Shown one piece after another: positions 1,674-48,129 of a stretch of DNA of 64,000 nt (position 1 is its first letter; each line of letters opens with the position of its first letter). The notes beneath the pieces were generated by a model that was not told where the DNA came from, did no database searches, and saw nothing but the letters and a program-made list of their open reading frames with translations. Origin of the DNA: Luteibaculum oceani (GTDB lineage: Bacteria > Bacteroidota > Bacteroidia > Flavobacteriales_D > Luteibaculaceae); NCBI RefSeq assembly GCF_007995015.1, contig NZ_VORB01000003.1:186001-250000 (forward strand). The letters run 5' to 3'. The position numbers were made by a program, and so were the translations under genes.

Positions 1674-1705
1674 GATATAAGGTATTGGAAATTGCGGCTG
1701 CAAAA

Positions 1706-2707
1706 CTAGTAATTTAATATGTAAAAACTGAGTTCTCGGAGCAATCCTCCCTCATCTGTCCCCCCGTTATTCTTGCCCTTTGATCGCATATCATACTCGC
1801 GGAGTTTAGAATAAATCTTCACAACCGTTTTGGCAGGATAGTTTTTTGCAGCCTGCATGTATTGCCCGAAGAAAAAGGGTTTGATACCTATTAAACTGCA
1901 AATTTGGTTCTTATCCTTACTCGATGAGAAATGAATCATCATGAGTTTGTAGAAAAACTCAGCCAATTGACCGATTACCAAAATTGGGTGATTGTTTTTA
2001 GGATTATTTCCGAAATGCTCAGCAATTTCATATACCCGCTTTACATCTTTATTTCCTATCGCATTTATAAATTCAAATACATTGTACTCCCTACTAATAC
2101 CAATGTATTGCTCGACATGTTTAGGGCTCACCTCAGTTCCTTCTGGGAGGATAATCCCTAGCTTCTCAATAGCATTTGCGAGCTGCCCTAAATTGGAACC
2201 TAAGTTTTCTACCAATAGTTGCTGGGCATGCAACCCTAAATTTACCTTTTTGGAACGGGCATAATCGCTTAACCATGGTGCAACCTGGTTATCGTAGAGC
2301 TTTTTACTCTCGAATAGCACCCCCTGTTTTGCCACCGTTTTGGCAAATGACTTTCTTCCATCTAGCTTTTTCCCCTTATATAAAACCACCAGTACTGTAC
2401 TACTTGTTGGATTTTTAGCATAAGGTTCTAATTCCTCAATTTTCTTTAGTGATTGTCCCTCGCGAACAATAACCAGATTATACTCTGCCATCATCGGAAA
2501 ACGACGTGCGCTTTCAATAATCTGACTTACCTGGGTATCCTTACCGTAAAAGATAGATTGATTAAAATCGCGCTCCTCTTCCCTAAGAACAGTTTCAGCA
2601 ATAGCATCGTGGATCTTATCAATAAAGAAATCTTCCTCCCCTTGAAGAAAGTACAAAGGAGAAAATTTCCGCTGCTTTATATCCGATATAATATTTTCGA
2701 AAGTCAC
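1706..2707 (-). CDS. holA: DNA polymerase III subunit delta
   Basis: Delta subunit of the clamp-loader complex, which opens the beta sliding clamp and loads it on primed DNA. The 333-residue protein has the family opening (SPLYFLQGEEDFFIDK, residues 17-32), an AAA+-like middle without a functional Walker A, and the C-terminal collar helices; the length is normal. The start is GTG at 2707. Only 45 bases separate it from the GTG start of the divergent HsdR_N gene, an arrangement I recall as common in Flavobacteriales. The TonB receptor gene follows after 32 bases and may be read from the same transcript. Confidence 0.93.
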   Translation of the reverse strand: MTFENIISDIKQRKFSPLYFLQGEEDFFIDKIHDAIAETVLREEERDFNQSIFYGKDTQVSQIIESARRFPMMAEYNLVIVREGQSLKKIEELEPYAKNPTSSTVLVVLYKGKKLDGRKSFAKTVAKQGVLFESKKLYDNQVAPWLSDYARSKKVNLGLHAQQLLVENLGSNLGQLANAIEKLGIILPEGTEVSPKHVEQYIGISREYNVFEFINAIGNKDVKRVYEIAEHFGNNPKNNHPILVIGQLAEFFYKLMMIHFSSSKDKNQICSLIGIKPFFFGQYMQAAKNYPAKTVVKIYSKLREYDMRSKGKNNGGTDEGGLLRELSFYILNY

Positions 2708-6093: not shown

Positions 6094-6119
6094 AAAAAGG
6101 AGGTTCGCCTCCTTTTTTT
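6094..6119 (+). terminator. Rho-independent terminator after DUF5606
   Basis: Ten-base stem AAAAAGGAGG / CCTCCTTTTT around a TTCG tetraloop (6104-6107), ending in a run of seven T. It separates DUF5606 from the oligopeptidase gene that starts 13 bases later at 6132. Confidence 0.85.
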
Positions 6120-6131
6120 GTACCCAAAGAT

Positions 6132-7841
6132 ATGGAAGTTGTAGAAAGAAAAACAAGAAGATTTCTTCCACTAGACTTAAAAATTGAAAAGTGGGAAGAT
6201 ATTGCTCCTTTTCTTGAGCAGTTAGAAGAGCGTGTTATTGAAAATGCTGCAGATTTAGAAAATTTCATTTTCGACTTGAGCGAGGTTGAAGCCGTTTTAG
6301 AAGAAGCAGGAGCTTGGAGATATATTCGCATGACATGCGACACGGCCAACAAGGAATACGTTGATAATTACACCTACTTCATCAACGAAATTCAACCGAA
6401 AATAGCCCCAATTGGAGATAGACTTAACAAAAAAATCCAAGCTGCACCGGGAAAAGAAAGGTTACCAGAAAGCTTACTTTACAAAAATTACTTCCGAAAT
6501 ATCGCCAAGGATATAGAGATATACCGCGAGGAAAACATTGCCCTTTTCACCGAAATCTCCAATCTATCAAAAGAATTTGGCGCCATAAGCGGAGCCATGA
6601 CCGTGGAGTGGGATGGCAAAGAGCTTACCATGCAGCAAGCAGGTAAGTTGCTGAAGAAGACAGACCGAAAAATTAGAGAAGAAGCCTACTTTAAAATCCA
6701 AGAAAGAAGATTTGAGGATAGGGAAAAACTTGATGGCCTATTTGACAAACTGGTGAGCAAACGCCAGAAAGTAGCAGAAAATGCAGGCTTCGAAAACTTC
6801 AGGGACTATAAATTCAAATCCATGGGCAGGTTTGATTATGGTGTAGAAGACTGCAAAAGCTTCCACGAAAGCGTGAAAAAGCATATTGTTCCATTAGTAG
6901 GGAAAATGCTAGAAGAGCGCAGGGAAAAGCTAGGTGTATCAAGTCTAAAGCCATGGGATTTAGCTGTAGATCCAATTGGAAAAGAGCCTCTCACCCCATT
7001 TACGGATGGAAAAGAACTACTCGAAAAATCGGTTAATGTTTTTGCGAAAATTGATCCATATTTCTCGGATTGCCTCAAAATAATGGATAAGATGGGGCAT
7101 TTGGATTTGGAGTCGCGAAAAGGAAAAGCTCCAGGAGGATACAATTACCCCCTTTATGAAATAGGTGTTCCATTTATCTTTATGAACGCCGCTGGTACAC
7201 ATAGTGATGTAATTACCATGATGCACGAGGGAGGACATGCGGTACATTCTTTTCTAACAAAAGATTTCAAAGTAACTGGATTTAAAAGCTTCCCATCTGA
7301 AGTTGCAGAGCTTGCCAGTATGAGCACCGAGCTTATTAGTATGGTTGCCGGTTGGGAAGATTTTTACCCGAATTCTGATGACCTCCAACGAGCCATAGCA
7401 GATCAGCTGGAGCGTGTATTAGACGTATTACCATGGGTAGCAACCATCGATAAATTCCAGCACTGGATTTACGAGAACCCACAACATTCTGAAAAGGATA
7501 GAAACAAAGCCTGGATTGAGATATTTAAAGAATTCCACCCCGATGTAGTAGACTACAGTGGCTGCGAAAAATACCTCGAAAAAATGTGGCAGAAACAAAT
7601 GCACCTTTTCGAAGTTCCCTTCTACTACATAGAATATGGGTTTGCGCAGTTGGGAGCAATAGCGGTTTGGATGAACTATGAAAAAAATCCATCGGAAACG
7701 CTTGAGAAATTTAAAAAAGCATTAAGCCTAGGTTACACCAAGACCATCCCAGAGATATACAAAACCGCAGGAATTAGGTTCGACTTTAGCCCAAATTATA
7801 TAAAGGAATTGGCAAGCTTTGTCGAATCCAAAATGCAGTAA
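6132..7841 (+). CDS. M3 family oligoendopeptidase (PepF-like)
   Basis: Zinc metallopeptidase that cleaves short peptides in the cytoplasm. The 569-residue protein carries the M3 zinc motif HEGGH at 365-369 with the downstream Glu region FPSEVAELASMSTEL (the third ligand). The helical N-terminal domain that closes over the active site is present. The frame is open upstream through the terminator, but ATG at 6132 matches the usual start of the family, and a start before the terminator is unlikely. No signal peptide. The gene is flanked by terminators on both sides and so is probably monocistronic, although its 5' leader would be very short. Confidence 0.9.
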   Translation: MEVVERKTRRFLPLDLKIEKWEDIAPFLEQLEERVIENAADLENFIFDLSEVEAVLEEAGAWRYIRMTCDTANKEYVDNYTYFINEIQPKIAPIGDRLNKKIQAAPGKERLPESLLYKNYFRNIAKDIEIYREENIALFTEISNLSKEFGAISGAMTVEWDGKELTMQQAGKLLKKTDRKIREEAYFKIQERRFEDREKLDGLFDKLVSKRQKVAENAGFENFRDYKFKSMGRFDYGVEDCKSFHESVKKHIVPLVGKMLEERREKLGVSSLKPWDLAVDPIGKEPLTPFTDGKELLEKSVNVFAKIDPYFSDCLKIMDKMGHLDLESRKGKAPGGYNYPLYEIGVPFIFMNAAGTHSDVITMMHEGGHAVHSFLTKDFKVTGFKSFPSEVAELASMSTELISMVAGWEDFYPNSDDLQRAIADQLERVLDVLPWVATIDKFQHWIYENPQHSEKDRNKAWIEIFKEFHPDVVDYSGCEKYLEKMWQKQMHLFEVPFYYIEYGFAQLGAIAVWMNYEKNPSETLEKFKKALSLGYTKTIPEIYKTAGIRFDFSPNYIKELASFVESKMQ

Positions 7842-42040: not shown

Positions 42041-44485
42041 TTAAAGTCCTGCGACTTCCTTCGATTTAAAGGTATTTATTCCACAATCTAAAAACTGTAA
42101 GTAATCTTCAACATTAGGGGTATAACCCACTGGATTCCCTAGTAACTCTCCTTCTGGGGATAGCATTACATAATAAGGTTGTGAATTGTTATTAAACACC
42201 TGTGTTTGGAAGGTAGCCCACTTGTTTCCAATGGTTCTGATTTTCTTTTTAATGATTTCACCATTGGCTTCAAACTCAATTACCCCTTGCTGCTCTTCGG
42301 GTAATTTCACCTTGTCGTCTACATAAAGAGAAACAAGTACAAAATCCTTTTCTAGTCTCTCTTTCACTTCATCAACGGTCCAAACGGATTCCTCCATTTT
42401 TCTACAGTTAACGCAAGCCCAACCGGTAAAATCAATCAGAATGGGTTTGTTTTCTGCCTTTGCCGCTTCCATGGCTTCAGCAAAATCGTCATACTCCGCG
42501 TGGAATCCTTCTTTTTCATACCAAGAATAAAAAGTTGGAGGAGGGAAACCACTTAACAAATTGTGGTTCCATGGACTATTTTTAAGTACTCCAGTAGAAA
42601 TATAAACTGTAAATAACAACACGCTCACGGCAAATGCTAATCTTCCTGTAGAAAGCTTTTTTAGTTTGCTATCGTGAGGAAACTTCAACCATCCAAACAA
42701 GTATGCTGCCAATCCAATTCCAATTACAGACCAGATTAGGAAGAAGGTTTCTCTTTTAACCAATCCCCATTGTTCTACTAGATCGGCATTAGAGATAAAC
42801 TTAAGCGCTAGGGCCAGCTCAATAAATCCAAGAACTACCTTAACCGAATTTAACCATCCCCCTGATTTAGGCAATTTGGCCATCATACTTGGGAAAGTGG
42901 CGAAAATCGCAAAAGGTAAACCTAGTGCAACCCCAAAGCCACTCATAGCTGCCGTAATAGGCCATGGACCATTTTTTAGGGCATTCCCTAAAACCGTACC
43001 AAGTATAGGACCGGTGCAAGAAAATGATACCAACGCTAAGGTTAAAGCCATAAAGAAGATTCCCAATACTCCTCCGACCTGGGATGCTGAATCGGTTTTA
43101 TTCGCCAAAGAACTTGGAAGGGTAATTTCAAAAAAACCGAAGAAGGAAATAGCAAAGAACACGAATACCCCAAAAAAGATAAGGTTTAACCATACGCTGG
43201 TTGCAATCTCATTTAGTACTTCTGGATCGGTATTAAAATGAAATGGAACACTTAGAACTGCGTAAATAAAGAAGATGAAAAAACCATAAAGCACGGCTTT
43301 TCCCACACCTTTTGATCCACCCTCACCCTTGGTAAAAAAACTTACTGTTAGGGGTATCATCGGGAATACACATGGGGTTAAAAGTGCTAGCAATCCACCT
43401 AAAAACCCAAATAAAAACACCATCCACACATTGCTAATTTCTTGGCGCTCTCCGCATGTACCAAGTGGGTTTTCAAGGTCCACCTTTGGAAGGGTAGGTA
43501 CCACCTCGGCAACAGCATTATCCGTTGAGGCGGTCTCTAAACTTGCAAGATTGGTTGCAGGCCCAGGTGTTAAATCAAACTCAAAATCTACCATTTCTGG
43601 TGGCAAGCAGCGTTCTGCATTACACACCATAAACTCGAAATATCCCTTAACCTTATTTAAAGAACCGTCTGTTTTAACTCTTTGCGTAAAGGTTACCTCC
43701 TCGGTAAAGAAGGCCAAATCCATCAAAAAATTGGGATCGTATTTTTCCTCTGCTTTTGGTTCCTTGGTCTTGCCCTGAAGTTGCATCCCTTCGGCATCCT
43801 CAAAGCTAAAAACAGTCGCAATAGGTCCATCTTCACTTGATAGATATTGAGAATACACGTACCACCCCTCATCAATAGAAGCGGTGAAATTAATATCGAA
43901 GGTAAATTCATCAATTTGCTTTATCTCATAAGACCAGTCTACGGGGTCGAAAATAGTTGTACCCGTTTCCTCACCTGCCTCTTCAGATTTAGTATTCTCA
44001 TCTACTGCCGCGTCCATCTTTTTGGATTCGGCACCTCCAGCTGATGGTTTCGCAAAAGAAAAATCAATTATTTCGGGTGGAAGGCAACGTTCATCGGTAC
44101 AAACCATAAACTCCAGCTCACCTGTAATAGGTGCTTTACCTTCCCACTTAACAATTTGTGTGAAGACTGCGCTTTTCTCATAATAGCTGAGATCCATTTC
44201 AAAGACCTTGTCAAATTTGGTAATTACGTTACCATCTTTGATTGCCCCCTTTGTTGAGTAATGATCCCCCTTTTTAAAGTAAAAGCTAGTGGCTATAGGC
44301 CCCTCGTCTGAACTCAAATGAGCAGCATATAGGTGCCAGTCTTTCTCAATATTTGCCTTAAATAGCAACTTGTACTCATTTCCAGAAACAGGCTCAACCT
44401 CATAGGACCATTTAACTGGATTATAAATTTGAGCGGAGATGCTCAAAGTAAAAAGGGATAATAAAACTAATAATAGGTTTCGCAT
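42041..44485 (-). CDS. dsbD: Protein-disulfide reductase DsbD with duplicated N-terminal domain
   Basis: Carries electrons from cytoplasmic thioredoxin across the inner membrane to periplasmic proteins. The 814-residue protein has a signal peptide (ending SISAQ), two tandem DsbD-alpha-like domains (about 20-147 and 178-305), an eight-helix membrane domain (about 352-632) with C372 in LTPCVFPMIPL and C490 in SFSCTGPILG, and a C-terminal thioredoxin domain with CVNC at 691-694. Each alpha-like domain keeps a VCxxxRCLPPE motif (C129/C134 and C288/C293). E. coli DsbD has one such domain. ATG at 44485; 57 bases after the transporter gene. Confidence 0.92.
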   Translation of the reverse strand: MRNLLLVLLSLFTLSISAQIYNPVKWSYEVEPVSGNEYKLLFKANIEKDWHLYAAHLSSDEGPIATSFYFKKGDHYSTKGAIKDGNVITKFDKVFEMDLSYYEKSAVFTQIVKWEGKAPITGELEFMVCTDERCLPPEIIDFSFAKPSAGGAESKKMDAAVDENTKSEEAGEETGTTIFDPVDWSYEIKQIDEFTFDINFTASIDEGWYVYSQYLSSEDGPIATVFSFEDAEGMQLQGKTKEPKAEEKYDPNFLMDLAFFTEEVTFTQRVKTDGSLNKVKGYFEFMVCNAERCLPPEMVDFEFDLTPGPATNLASLETASTDNAVAEVVPTLPKVDLENPLGTCGERQEISNVWMVFLFGFLGGLLALLTPCVFPMIPLTVSFFTKGEGGSKGVGKAVLYGFFIFFIYAVLSVPFHFNTDPEVLNEIATSVWLNLIFFGVFVFFAISFFGFFEITLPSSLANKTDSASQVGGVLGIFFMALTLALVSFSCTGPILGTVLGNALKNGPWPITAAMSGFGVALGLPFAIFATFPSMMAKLPKSGGWLNSVKVVLGFIELALALKFISNADLVEQWGLVKRETFFLIWSVIGIGLAAYLFGWLKFPHDSKLKKLSTGRLAFAVSVLLFTVYISTGVLKNSPWNHNLLSGFPPPTFYSWYEKEGFHAEYDDFAEAMEAAKAENKPILIDFTGWACVNCRKMEESVWTVDEVKERLEKDFVLVSLYVDDKVKLPEEQQGVIEFEANGEIIKKKIRTIGNKWATFQTQVFNNNSQPYYVMLSPEGELLGNPVGYTPNVEDYLQFLDCGINTFKSKEVAGL

Positions 44486-44542
44486 AGGTTGTTATCGTAA
44501 GCAGGTGCAAAAGTAACGAATCTATGCCTTTTGGCTTTTCCC

Positions 44543-45271
44543 TTAATCCAGACTAATTTCCTCTCCCAATTGCAATGCAAAATGCTTTCTGGCCCAAAAA
44601 GTGACCAAATAAAAAATTGGAGTATCGAATAAGGCTACAATTACTTTAAATAAAAATCCAGATAACAATAGATTAAAAAATTGGTCCCACGCTATAGCGC
44701 CCGCAGTACATAGCAACACTAGTACGGTAGAGGTATCTATTAATTGCGACCCCATGGTGGAGAAATTATTTCGTATCCAAAGATACTTTCCGCCCGTAAG
44801 GTTTTTCCAAAAATGAAATAGCCTAACATCTATGAGTTGAGCAAATAGATAGGCCAACATGCTGGCTCCAACCGCCACCCCAGTTAATCCGAATACCTTG
44901 GTAAACATGGTATCATTAACTGGAGACCATGAAGTAGCAGGAACCGCGTCCGAAACCGATACAACCAATAGGGTAAATAAGGCCGCCACCAAACCCGAAA
45001 CTACAACGAGGTTTGCCTTTTTTCTACCAAAAATTTCACTTATTAAATCGGTTATAAGAAATGTAATAGGGTAGGGCAAAATGCCAACAGAAATTTCAAA
45101 AGTAAATTCCTGTATAGCTCCCCAGTCTTCCGGAAGAAAGGAAAATGGAGACCAAAAAAAGAACTTCTGAAAAATTAAATTACAAGATACCAAGGAGGCT
45201 ATAAAGAGCCCTCCTAAAATAAAAAACAGGCTAAAGGCCTGTTTTTTCTTATTTCCACTAAGCTGTTTAAT
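44543..45271 (-). CDS. yhhQ: Queuosine-precursor-type transporter (YhhQ/VUT family)
   Basis: Membrane protein of the YhhQ family, which imports queuosine precursors in E. coli. The family signatures PYPITFLITDLISEIFGRKKA, ATSWSPV, WIRNNFSTMGSQLID and the C-terminal lobe are clear. A TTG at 45193 would leave out the first membrane helix. The frame extends upstream without a stop for 26 codons, coding for a normal family N-terminus (KQLSGNKKKQAF, then the TM1 residues LFFILGGLFIASLV). The only plausible start there is ATT at 45271, one base after the previous gene's TAG stop. A terminator-shaped hairpin lies within these codons. The total would be 242 residues. Confidence 0.82.
   Translation of the reverse strand: MKQLSGNKKKQAFSLFFILGGLFIASLVSCNLIFQKFFFWSPFSFLPEDWGAIQEFTFEISVGILPYPITFLITDLISEIFGRKKANLVVVSGLVAALFTLLVVSVSDAVPATSWSPVNDTMFTKVFGLTGVAVGASMLAYLFAQLIDVRLFHFWKNLTGGKYLWIRNNFSTMGSQLIDTSTVLVLLCTAGAIAWDQFFNLLLSGFLFKVIVALFDTPIFYLVTFWARKHFALQLGEEISLD
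45221..45247 (-). terminator. Terminator-like hairpin inside the extended yhhQ 5' coding region
   Basis: Stem AAAAAACAGGC / GCCTGTTTTTT around a five-base loop; on the minus strand the T run continues TTTTTTATTTT. It lies 24-50 bases into the frame that starts at ATT 45271 and just downstream of the 97-residue gene, so it may end that transcript, attenuate the transporter, or both. Confidence 0.7.
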
Positions 45272-45272
45272 A

Positions 45273-45566
45273 CTACAGGAGTTTTATTTCGTGAATGCGA
45301 TGAACAGGAATAAATACCCCCTGCTTTAGAACAATATTATCATCCCCTGAAGCCCACACTGTGGTTTCCACAGCTTTAAGTCCTTCACTATCCTCGAATA
45401 CGATCCTACATTTAAACTTTTCTGTGTTGCCCAAAGCTGTGGCTCTCTCTATCTTTATTTTACGCTCAGCCTGGGCCTCCTTTGTTAATAATACTTCCTC
45501 GTGAGGAAAGTGGAAATTGGCTATTGCTTCTTTTTCCACCAATTTTGGGTCTCCTAAATGGTTCAT
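45273..45566 (-). CDS. Conserved small protein of unknown function
   Basis: A 97-residue soluble protein that recalls conserved flavobacterial proteins of unknown role. The N-terminal 45 residues are charged and helical; the C-terminal half reads like a small beta-barrel or SH3-like fold (FKCRIVFEDSEG and ASGDDNIVLKQGVFIPVHRI). ATG at 45566, 24 bases after tilS. Its TAG stop is one base from the presumed ATT start of the transporter gene. Confidence 0.72.
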   Translation of the reverse strand: MNHLGDPKLVEKEAIANFHFPHEEVLLTKEAQAERKIKIERATALGNTEKFKCRIVFEDSEGLKAVETTVWASGDDNIVLKQGVFIPVHRIHEIKLL

Positions 45567-45590
45567 GGAATTGGTATTTTAATGGCTCTA

Positions 45591-46916
45591 TTAATTTAAT
45601 TCAATTTTATAGTGTTGTACCTGTCCACCCGACCAACGGGTTAATTCAGACGTTCTAAGGTTTTCTATAAATAACACTCCTGATTTGTTCTTCCAAGTAT
45701 AAAAATATTTCCTAATGCATTGGGGCATTCGTGCATCTTTAAATAATTCTTTTGCTGTTTTTTTCTTTCCACCTAATCCAAATACAGCAATTTTATCCCC
45801 TTCATCCGTGGGTTGGATACTTATTGGAAAAGCGTGCTCTTTAATAGGTAAAATAAAGGATTTGTGACCCTCCAACTTGGCATCCGCCTCTTCTTTAACC
45901 AAGGAAACGGCCTTAATTCTATCCAATTTCTGTAAATCTTCTATGCTTTGCACATTATAATTTGGGCCAGATGTATTTGATGGTTTAAACAAATACAACA
46001 CCCCACCTTTAAATTCAGCGTCCAGGTCTTGGCTCCCTTTAAACATTTTGCTTTCAAAATCCTCGCTATCAAACCCCCAAAGTCTTTCAATAGTATCCAC
46101 GGAAAACCCCTTTTCTTGGAGCCAATAGCTGAAAAGCTCTTTGCTATTGTGTTCTCTTTTAAAGGCCTTTAGATCAAACTGCGTAACCTCGCGAAAAAGC
46201 TGCGTAATAAAAGGGGTGATTAATGCTCTAAGAGCAAAAGTCATAGCCTGTTCTACTTGTTGCATTTTTTCCTGTAAGGTAGATAACCGCTGCTCTAAAT
46301 CTGGATATTGAGTTTGAATGTGGGGAATCCCTTTTAACCTCCACCAATTTCTTTTGTAATCGGTTTTTTTATTGGTTTTGTCCTCTCGCCATTCCCATTT
46401 ATTAGCAAGTAACCAGGACTTAATATCATCCTTATTTACGTCGAGTAGTGGTCGAAACCTATTTCCATCCAGTATTTTCATGCCTCCCAGGCTAAACACT
46501 GATGACGGTCGCATGGATTTTAGAAAAAACTGCTCTATTTGATCGTTTTTGTGGTGCCCCAGGGCTAACAGAGTAAAATCTTGCTCCCGTATTAACTGAT
46601 CAAAGAATTGGTATCTAATATTTCGAGCCCATGATTGGAGGTCATTTTTACTTTCCTCTCCAGGAAAAACTTCCTTTTTAAAAAATTCGATTTGATGTTG
46701 ATGCGCAAGGCGCTCTGCGAAATCCGCATCCATCTTGGCATCTTCCCCTCTTAAATTATAATTGATATGAGCTACGGAAAACTGTACTCCAAACTGCCGT
46801 AAAACATGGAATAGCGCAATAGAATCTGCCCCTCCAGACAGCGCCAATAAAAGCTTATCCGTTTCGGCAACATTATACTCTATTCTAGATTTTACTCTTT
46901 GTAACCAGTTGTCCAT
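45591..46916 (-). CDS. tilS: tRNA(Ile)-lysidine synthetase
   Basis: Changes C34 of the CAU-anticodon tRNA-Ile to lysidine so that it reads AUA. The 441-residue protein has the P-loop LALSGGADS (SGGADS at 27-32), the VAHINYNLRG motif, GHHKNDQIEQ (the family's GHHxxDQ), and the C-terminal substrate-binding domains. ATG at 46916 gives MDNWLQRV; an upstream TTG (46928) is also in frame. It overlaps the end of pabB by 32 bases. tilS next to pabB is common in Flavobacteriales. Confidence 0.93.
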   Translation of the reverse strand: MDNWLQRVKSRIEYNVAETDKLLLALSGGADSIALFHVLRQFGVQFSVAHINYNLRGEDAKMDADFAERLAHQHQIEFFKKEVFPGEESKNDLQSWARNIRYQFFDQLIREQDFTLLALGHHKNDQIEQFFLKSMRPSSVFSLGGMKILDGNRFRPLLDVNKDDIKSWLLANKWEWREDKTNKKTDYKRNWWRLKGIPHIQTQYPDLEQRLSTLQEKMQQVEQAMTFALRALITPFITQLFREVTQFDLKAFKREHNSKELFSYWLQEKGFSVDTIERLWGFDSEDFESKMFKGSQDLDAEFKGGVLYLFKPSNTSGPNYNVQSIEDLQKLDRIKAVSLVKEEADAKLEGHKSFILPIKEHAFPISIQPTDEGDKIAVFGLGGKKKTAKELFKDARMPQCIRKYFYTWKNKSGVLFIENLRTSELTRWSGGQVQHYKIELN

Positions 46917-48129
46917 TAACACTATCAATGAGGGCCTTAGCCTTTACCAAGCATTCATCATACTCCATTTCTGGATCGCATTTTGCCGTTAGCGCACTTC
47001 CCGTTTTAAAATTAAGCTCTTTTCTTTCTGTATCGTAGAAAAGAGAGCGTATTACCACATTGAAATTGAAGTCGCCATTGGGTAAAATATAACCTATTGA
47101 ACCCGAATAAATTCCTCTTGGAGTTCCTTCTGCCTGCTGTGCCAACTCCATAGCGCTAATCTTGGGCGCTCCAGTCATGGACCCCATGGGAAAAGTAGCT
47201 TTCAAGATTTTGGCCAAATCTGTTTCTTGCTCAATTTCGGCTTTAACAGTTGAAACCATGTGGTGAACCGTTTTAAAGCTTTTAATGGCACACAATTCTT
47301 CTACCTCAACGCTTCCCTTTTTTGCAATCCTAGAAAAATCATTCCGGACTAAATCTACAATCATGATATTTTCTGCGCGCTCCTTCTCAGATTTCGCTAG
47401 GGCAATTGAAAGCTCTAAATCCTCCGCTGCATTTTTAGACCTTCTAACCGTCCCTTTTATTGGAGATGATCGCAATATTCCATCCTCTTTCCTCAAGAAT
47501 AATTCAGGCGAAGCACATAATAATCGATTCCCCTTGTATTTTACAAAAGCACTATAGGGAGCCTGTGTCTTTTCATTAAGTGATTGGTATAAATCCCAGG
47601 AATTTATATCCACGTCGGGGCAAATAAATTCTTGGCAAAAATTCACCTCGTAAATATTTCCAAGGCGGATATTTTCCAGCAGCATTTTCGCCCGGTCAAC
47701 GTATTCATTTCTACTGAAACTGGCGTATACGTTTCGCTTTTTATTAAGAGGATTTTTAAGGAGATCGGATATCCTTTTTTTAAGCAGTACATCAGAGGGT
47801 AAAGTACCTTCCTCCCAATCAATCAAGTTGGTATCTGGTTGTACCTCGCCTATGTGTTCGGGAACAATTAAAAGAAGCTTAGGAAAAGAATAATGGGGAT
47901 TTGATGCAGGAGTTAACTCCTCAATGTCATTTTTTAATTCGTAAGAAAATGCACAAAAAATGTACTCTCCTTTGTTGCGATCGAGAAAGTTTTGGAACGC
48001 TATCCAATCAACCCCTTGGGTTGGATTTATTTCCAAGCTGGATTTTACACCCGCAAATACCGGGTGTGCACCCTCTCCATTACTGTTGAAAAAAGCCCAA
48101 AAATCAAAATTTTCAAAGGGCTCCATCAT
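46885..48129 (-). CDS. pabB: Aminodeoxychorismate synthase component I
   Basis: Uses chorismate and ammonia to make 4-amino-4-deoxychorismate for folate. The 414-residue protein of the anthranilate synthase I family has NIYEVNFCQEF, the PIKGT motif (which marks PabB over TrpE, where Ala is usual) and the C-terminal blocks GSMTGAPK and GSIGYILPNG. No glutaminase partner is visible nearby. ATG at 48129 or 48126. It sits 2 bases after hemH; tilS overlaps its end. Confidence 0.9.
   Translation of the reverse strand: MMEPFENFDFWAFFNSNGEGAHPVFAGVKSSLEINPTQGVDWIAFQNFLDRNKGEYIFCAFSYELKNDIEELTPASNPHYSFPKLLLIVPEHIGEVQPDTNLIDWEEGTLPSDVLLKKRISDLLKNPLNKKRNVYASFSRNEYVDRAKMLLENIRLGNIYEVNFCQEFICPDVDINSWDLYQSLNEKTQAPYSAFVKYKGNRLLCASPELFLRKEDGILRSSPIKGTVRRSKNAAEDLELSIALAKSEKERAENIMIVDLVRNDFSRIAKKGSVEVEELCAIKSFKTVHHMVSTVKAEIEQETDLAKILKATFPMGSMTGAPKISAMELAQQAEGTPRGIYSGSIGYILPNGDFNFNVVIRSLFYDTERKELNFKTGSALTAKCDPEMEYDECLVKAKALIDSVNGQLVTKSKI

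Follow-up and report, generated by a model that had tools for sequence, protein, structure and literature searches.

The yhhQ-type transporter gene of Luteibaculum, a predicted importer of queuosine precursors, has no canonical start codon where its homologues start, and is likely to begin at an AUU codon one base after the stop codon of the gene upstream. Its first codons also contain a hairpin of the intrinsic-terminator class, which is probably a working terminator. We favour a reading in which the terminator of the upstream operon lies over the first codons of an AUU-started transporter gene and readthrough is set by prompt initiation, and we consider this combination to be just short of probable.

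Gene content and transcription of the locus

The window, by which we mean the whole stretch of 64,000 nucleotides analysed, carries on its minus strand a run of genes in the order hemH-like, pabB-like, tilS, a gene for a 97-residue protein, the transporter gene, and a dsbD-like gene (Table 1). The hemH-like, pabB-like and dsbD-like neighbours were named by inspection, and these are presumed identities. The transporter clearly passes the cut-offs of TIGR00697 (queuosine precursor transporter; 133.8 bits versus 50.95) and of PF02592 (Vut_1/YhhQ; 155.3 versus 27.2), and falls below the cut-off of the E. coli-type equivalog PRK11212 (42.8 versus 252). The 97-residue protein had no match in Pfam or NCBIfam, although its family is conserved: a search of 399 genomes of the order found it in 225, often in more than one copy per genome. 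In three other genomes (L003, L013 and L026) the gene adjoins the transporter gene. A fusion of the two genes by frameshifting was considered and rejected, given that inspection found no slippery codon at CTC CTG TAG T and that these three genomes have the same gene order with two separate genes and a gap.

Table 1. Features of the transporter locus, in window coordinates
Feature	Position	Strand	Basis or remark
tilS	45591..46928	(-)	24 nt before the 97-aa gene, in one run; identity judged from sequence
97-aa gene, directly upstream of the transporter	45273..45566	(-)	stop TAG 45275-45273
yhhQ-type queuosine precursor transporter, 242 aa if ATT-started	44543..45271	(-)	TIGR00697 6.7e-39, PF02592 2e-45
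ATT, proposed transporter start codon	45269..45271	(-)	sequence, homologue start survey, Nonlabens ATG; base -3 is A
Intrinsic-terminator-type hairpin, 11 perfect pairs, A6/T6 ends	45221..45247	(-)	transporter codons 9-17, 25 nt past the TAG of the 97-aa gene
Second predicted hairpin (AGGAGG.CT / AGCCTCCT), pairing the first base of the TTG codon	45193..45215	(-)	minimum-energy structure
TTG, only canonical in-frame start, inside transmembrane segment 1 (TM1)	45191..45193	(-)	judged not the natural start
TACTTTTG, -7 element of the likely promoter of the dsbD-like gene	44508..44515	(-)	promoter scan
dsbD-like gene downstream of the transporter	42041-44485

Promoters were judged by a scan for the Bacteroidota consensus TTG-N17-23-TAnnTTTG. 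This consensus was not found on the minus strand between 45150 and 45600, and therefore the transporter gene is probably transcribed by readthrough from upstream. A search for a preQ1 riboswitch gave no Rfam preQ1 match in 44000-46500, even at E values up to 1, and no other Rfam element was credible.

The same genome has TGT and two QueA-like genes, QueF is absent, no credible QueC was found, and the transporter is present in a single copy; an importer should therefore be needed. From this gene content, Luteibaculum should be a preQ1 salvage genome that depends on imported preQ1.

Outside the window, the same genome has a run of ten A (G000:C3, about 166542-166551; L168, about 6542-6551) near the end of a dnaX-like frame. 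This frame stops at a TAA at about 166569, and an overlapping frame is then open for 77 codons without ATG, GTG or TTG. The run resembles a slippage site of dnaX, of the kind that yields tau and gamma, or else may be a homopolymer error.

The start codon of the transporter gene

A single base, T at 45272, separates the TAG of the 97-aa gene from the ATT at 45271-45269, which is in the frame of the transporter. There is no Shine-Dalgarno sequence at this ATT; the stop codon stands one base upstream and the base at -3 is A. From the ATT the frame continues AAA CAG CTT AGT GGA AAT AAG AAA AAA CAG GCC TTT AGC CTG TTT TTT and then ATT TTA GGA GGG CTC TTT ATA GCC TCC TTG, the last codon being the TTG at 45193. 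This TTG, 26 codons downstream of the ATT, is the only in-frame ATG, GTG or TTG before the body of the protein, and the frame is closed upstream by a TAA at 45286-45284. The first-pass annotation had placed the ATT one base after the TAG and had seen no stop over the 26 codons upstream of the TTG, and re-reading the minus strand bore out both points base for base. It had also described these codons as a normal family N-terminus, which holds from KKQAF onwards but not for residues 1-8 (IKQLSGNK), where identity is 24%.

Homologues were collected from the order by two overlapping searches, of 60 and 399 genomes, and by one scan of GTDB species genomes, and 119 distinct homologues with enough upstream sequence were used to survey start positions. 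A canonical start was found within eight codons on either side of the ATT position in 117 of the 119 (ATG in 101, GTG in 9 and TTG in 7), exactly at the ATT codon in 11 homologues, and further downstream than +8 codons in none. By homology, the start of the family thus lies in this region. The two exceptions are L104, with a TTG at -11, and L090, from Aquimarina sp. 2201CG14-23 (about 2480-2530), which has no ATG, GTG or TTG before TM1 and carries CTG where the start codon usually stands. The Luteibaculum gene has no canonical codon between -8 and +8, and the ATT is the only strong near-cognate codon there.

The alignment with YhhQ homologues that had been proposed as a check on the ATT also found ATG exactly at this codon in two Nonlabens loci (L059 and L089). 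These read ATG AAA AGC CTT TCT GGA AAT and ATG AAA CAA CTT, against ATT AAA CAG CTT AGT GGA AAT in the window; the likeness of the peptides MKSLSGN and MKQLKGK to IKQLSGN is short, and chance could contribute to it. ATT as the only start was seen in no other homologue, none of which is closer than about 65% identity. The family of Luteibaculum is represented by one genome, the search found no second strain or close relative, and the nearest homologues are 52-65% identical. Among the homologues of the order, 13 of 43 use GTG or TTG, having no ATG in range, and weak starts are therefore common for this transporter gene.

Conservation of the residues themselves points in the same direction. Measured against the family, the nine residues that precede the TTG (18-26) are on a par with those of a typical member, 63 of 115 homologues scoring equally or lower, and KKQAF does better than in most homologues; the coding constraint therefore extends above the TTG at 45193. 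With these nine residues as conserved as the rest, it is very unlikely that translation naturally begins at this TTG, and starting there would delete most of TM1. Taken from homology, AUU at 45271 is the likely start codon. Codon-usage scoring for other non-canonical starts in 450 kb of this genome was too weak over 26 codons.

A terminator-type hairpin within the first codons

On the minus strand the hairpin reads AAAAAACAGGC-CTTTA-GCCTGTTTTTT, followed by ATTTTA, and its left arm begins at base +25 of the ATT frame. The 11-base stem and T-rich tail reported in the first pass were recovered here as 11 perfect pairs and this ATTTTA. With a G+C-containing stem and a T tract, like the other terminators of the genome, the hairpin belongs to the intrinsic-terminator class. 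The background for this comparison was 386 kb of the same genome and the window, 450 kb in total, in which a strict terminator definition gave 22 hairpins, almost all intergenic and 0-37 nt after a stop codon. Synonymous recoding of genes gave a mean of 0.08 terminator-type hairpins per 409 kb. When the same 27 codons were recoded synonymously, a stem of at least 11 pairs appeared in 0.5% of the recodings, because the peptide KKKQAFSLFF favours a hairpin, and equal overall stability was reached in 0.3%. No matching hairpin was found in about 124 other homologue loci. We consider it likely, and with rather more confidence than the start codon itself, that the hairpin can act as a terminator, one found in this lineage alone. 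It is symmetrical and could act on the opposite strand too, where no gene was seen.

The residues encoded by the right arm, SLFF, are unusual for the family: only 2 of 110 homologues score as low, and FF at positions 16-17 is unique. This fits both selection for the hairpin and decay of the N-terminus. SLFF was set aside as proof of hairpin selection, since among 213 four-residue windows it ranks 14th from the bottom and is thus not decisive.

Two further hairpins of the terminator type were seen in coding sequence. One, with 9 bp (AAAACCCGG..CCGGGTTTT; G000:C2:101988-102010 of the same genome), is located far within a long open frame. The second, at 6094-6117 of the window, overlaps coding sequence probably through a mis-called start.

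If the ATT is the real start, the hairpin might still be non-regulatory, either as a chance product of the KKKQAFSLFF codons or as a leaky terminator that trims the upstream message. No other homologue has the hairpin, and at the rate of the local recodings about 0.6 such stems would be expected over 119 homologues, were all so coded. However, coding sequence of this genome, whether real or recoded, has almost no terminator-type hairpins, and the one seen here follows its stop codon at the typical distance; we regard a hairpin of no regulatory consequence as unlikely. It is improbable that the gene instead starts downstream, at the TTG, at a near-cognate CTG (45229) or at ATT (45220), from a separate promoter, with the hairpin simply ending the tilS/97-aa operon. 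In favour of this, no canonical start other than the TTG is available, the terminator is where the end of an operon is expected, and a match to five of the six positions of a -7 element (TATTTTAG) follows the hairpin. This match has no -33 TTG, however, and none of the 119 homologues begins later than codon +8. Furthermore, residues 18-26 above the TTG are conserved like the rest, and a start at the TTG would remove most of TM1 and use a codon that is partly paired in the second hairpin.

The ATT might also be an assembly error or a recent mutation of ATG in a single strain, since the draft genome, in 42 contigs, represents one strain, one wrong base would produce the ATT, and Nonlabens has ATG at the same codon. 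Against this, substitution errors are rare in assembled isolates, relatives repeatedly carry weak starts at this gene, and the Aquimarina homologue, with CTG at the usual codon, also has no canonical start; an error or a recent mutation therefore seems distinctly unlikely to us. Least credible is a decaying gene in which the start was lost and a terminator grew into the N-terminus. The loss of a canonical start and the unusual residues of the hairpin arm would agree with decay, but the frame of 242 codons is intact with strong family scores, and dependence on imported preQ1 in a genome with this sole copy speaks against a dead transporter gene.

Possible attenuation by ribosome progress

Returning to the AUU-started transporter gene, the terminator overlaps its first codons and readthrough would therefore need prompt initiation or re-initiation. 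The most likely source would be ribosomes that have completed the 97-aa gene and start anew at AUU, one base past its UAG. The hairpin in codons 9-17 would close the tilS/97-aa transcription unit, and RNA polymerase would tend to halt there unless the left arm were covered by a ribosome before the hairpin forms. Going by the size of ribosome footprints, a ribosome at the TAG or on the AUU would fall short of the left arm at +25; it would have to initiate at AUU and advance about 3-4 codons before RNA polymerase completes the right arm. Efficient initiation would then lead to readthrough and poor initiation to termination. Perhaps importer levels are held down by a weak start combined with a terminator inside the gene, and come to depend on how efficiently initiation occurs, and so on IF3, growth state and the translation of the 97-aa gene. 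What we infer from this arrangement is that ribosomes re-initiate, that the terminator acts in vivo and that a ribosome can block the hairpin, and translation-dependent attenuation, with the hairpin blocked by ribosome progress, is possible. Rather doubtful is the more specific proposal of a gene without a Shine-Dalgarno sequence whose first codons are its own attenuator, with AUU fed by re-initiation and a terminator in codons 9-17, and with neither a leader peptide nor an RNA sensor. To our knowledge, coupling of transcription and translation is unproven in Bacteroidota.

Individual steps have precedents in other systems. An A at -3 is a positive determinant of starts lacking a Shine-Dalgarno sequence in Flavobacterium johnsoniae (PMC6847099), AUU starts are weak and reduce expression (PMC13009471), and in E. 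coli the forward movement of ribosomes keeps intrinsic terminators from acting (PMC5021804). Re-initiation after a stop codon and the use of non-canonical starts are both sensitive to IF3 (PMC2268962). In known cases of re-initiation at an adjacent stop and start, which resemble the one-base spacing seen here, the start is ATG, GTG or TTG, and non-canonical codons are disfavoured when RRF and IF3 are functional (PMC2268962), whereas the transporter gene offers ATT.

With infC and pcnB of E. coli and cvfC1 of Staphylococcus aureus, the transporter gene would share an AUU start, low initiation efficiency and an expected sensitivity to IF3. However, cvfC1 has an extended Shine-Dalgarno sequence (PMC13009471), whereas the Luteibaculum gene has instead an A at -3 and, a single base before the AUU, the stop codon of the 97-aa gene, and compared with these AUU-initiated genes its start is placed by homology only. 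The first-pass annotation had cited infC as the classic case of an ATT start. In Luteibaculum itself, infC (L111, about 1700-1790, minus strand) has no ATT at its start and a TTG is available, so that autoregulation of IF3 through an ATT start, as in the classic case, is not evident here.

As in pyrBI attenuation in E. coli, an intrinsic terminator would lie in translated codons, where a close ribosome would prevent termination, but in pyrL these codons form a leader peptide and in Luteibaculum they would be the first codons of the structural gene. In E. coli frd-ampC, the terminator that ends the upstream operon also acts as an attenuator, and ribosome entry is thought to prevent termination and to make expression dependent on growth rate. 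The transporter locus would be similar in that the upstream operon terminator would serve as the attenuator of the downstream gene. In contrast, ampC is transcribed from a promoter of its own within frdD and has a coding sequence that lies past the attenuator, whereas for the transporter gene no consensus promoter was found between 45150 and 45600 and the coding sequence overlaps the hairpin.

Gene finders that accept only ATG, GTG and TTG would leave the first 26 residues out of the transporter and cut into TM1. Few genes are known to start at AUU, and most of these have a strong Shine-Dalgarno sequence to help. If the proposed arrangement is true, an AUU start in a lineage that does without such sequences, with an adjacent stop codon and an embedded terminator, would offer a simple test of ribosome-RNA polymerase coupling in Bacteroidota and of how the fidelity of IF3 reaches transcription.
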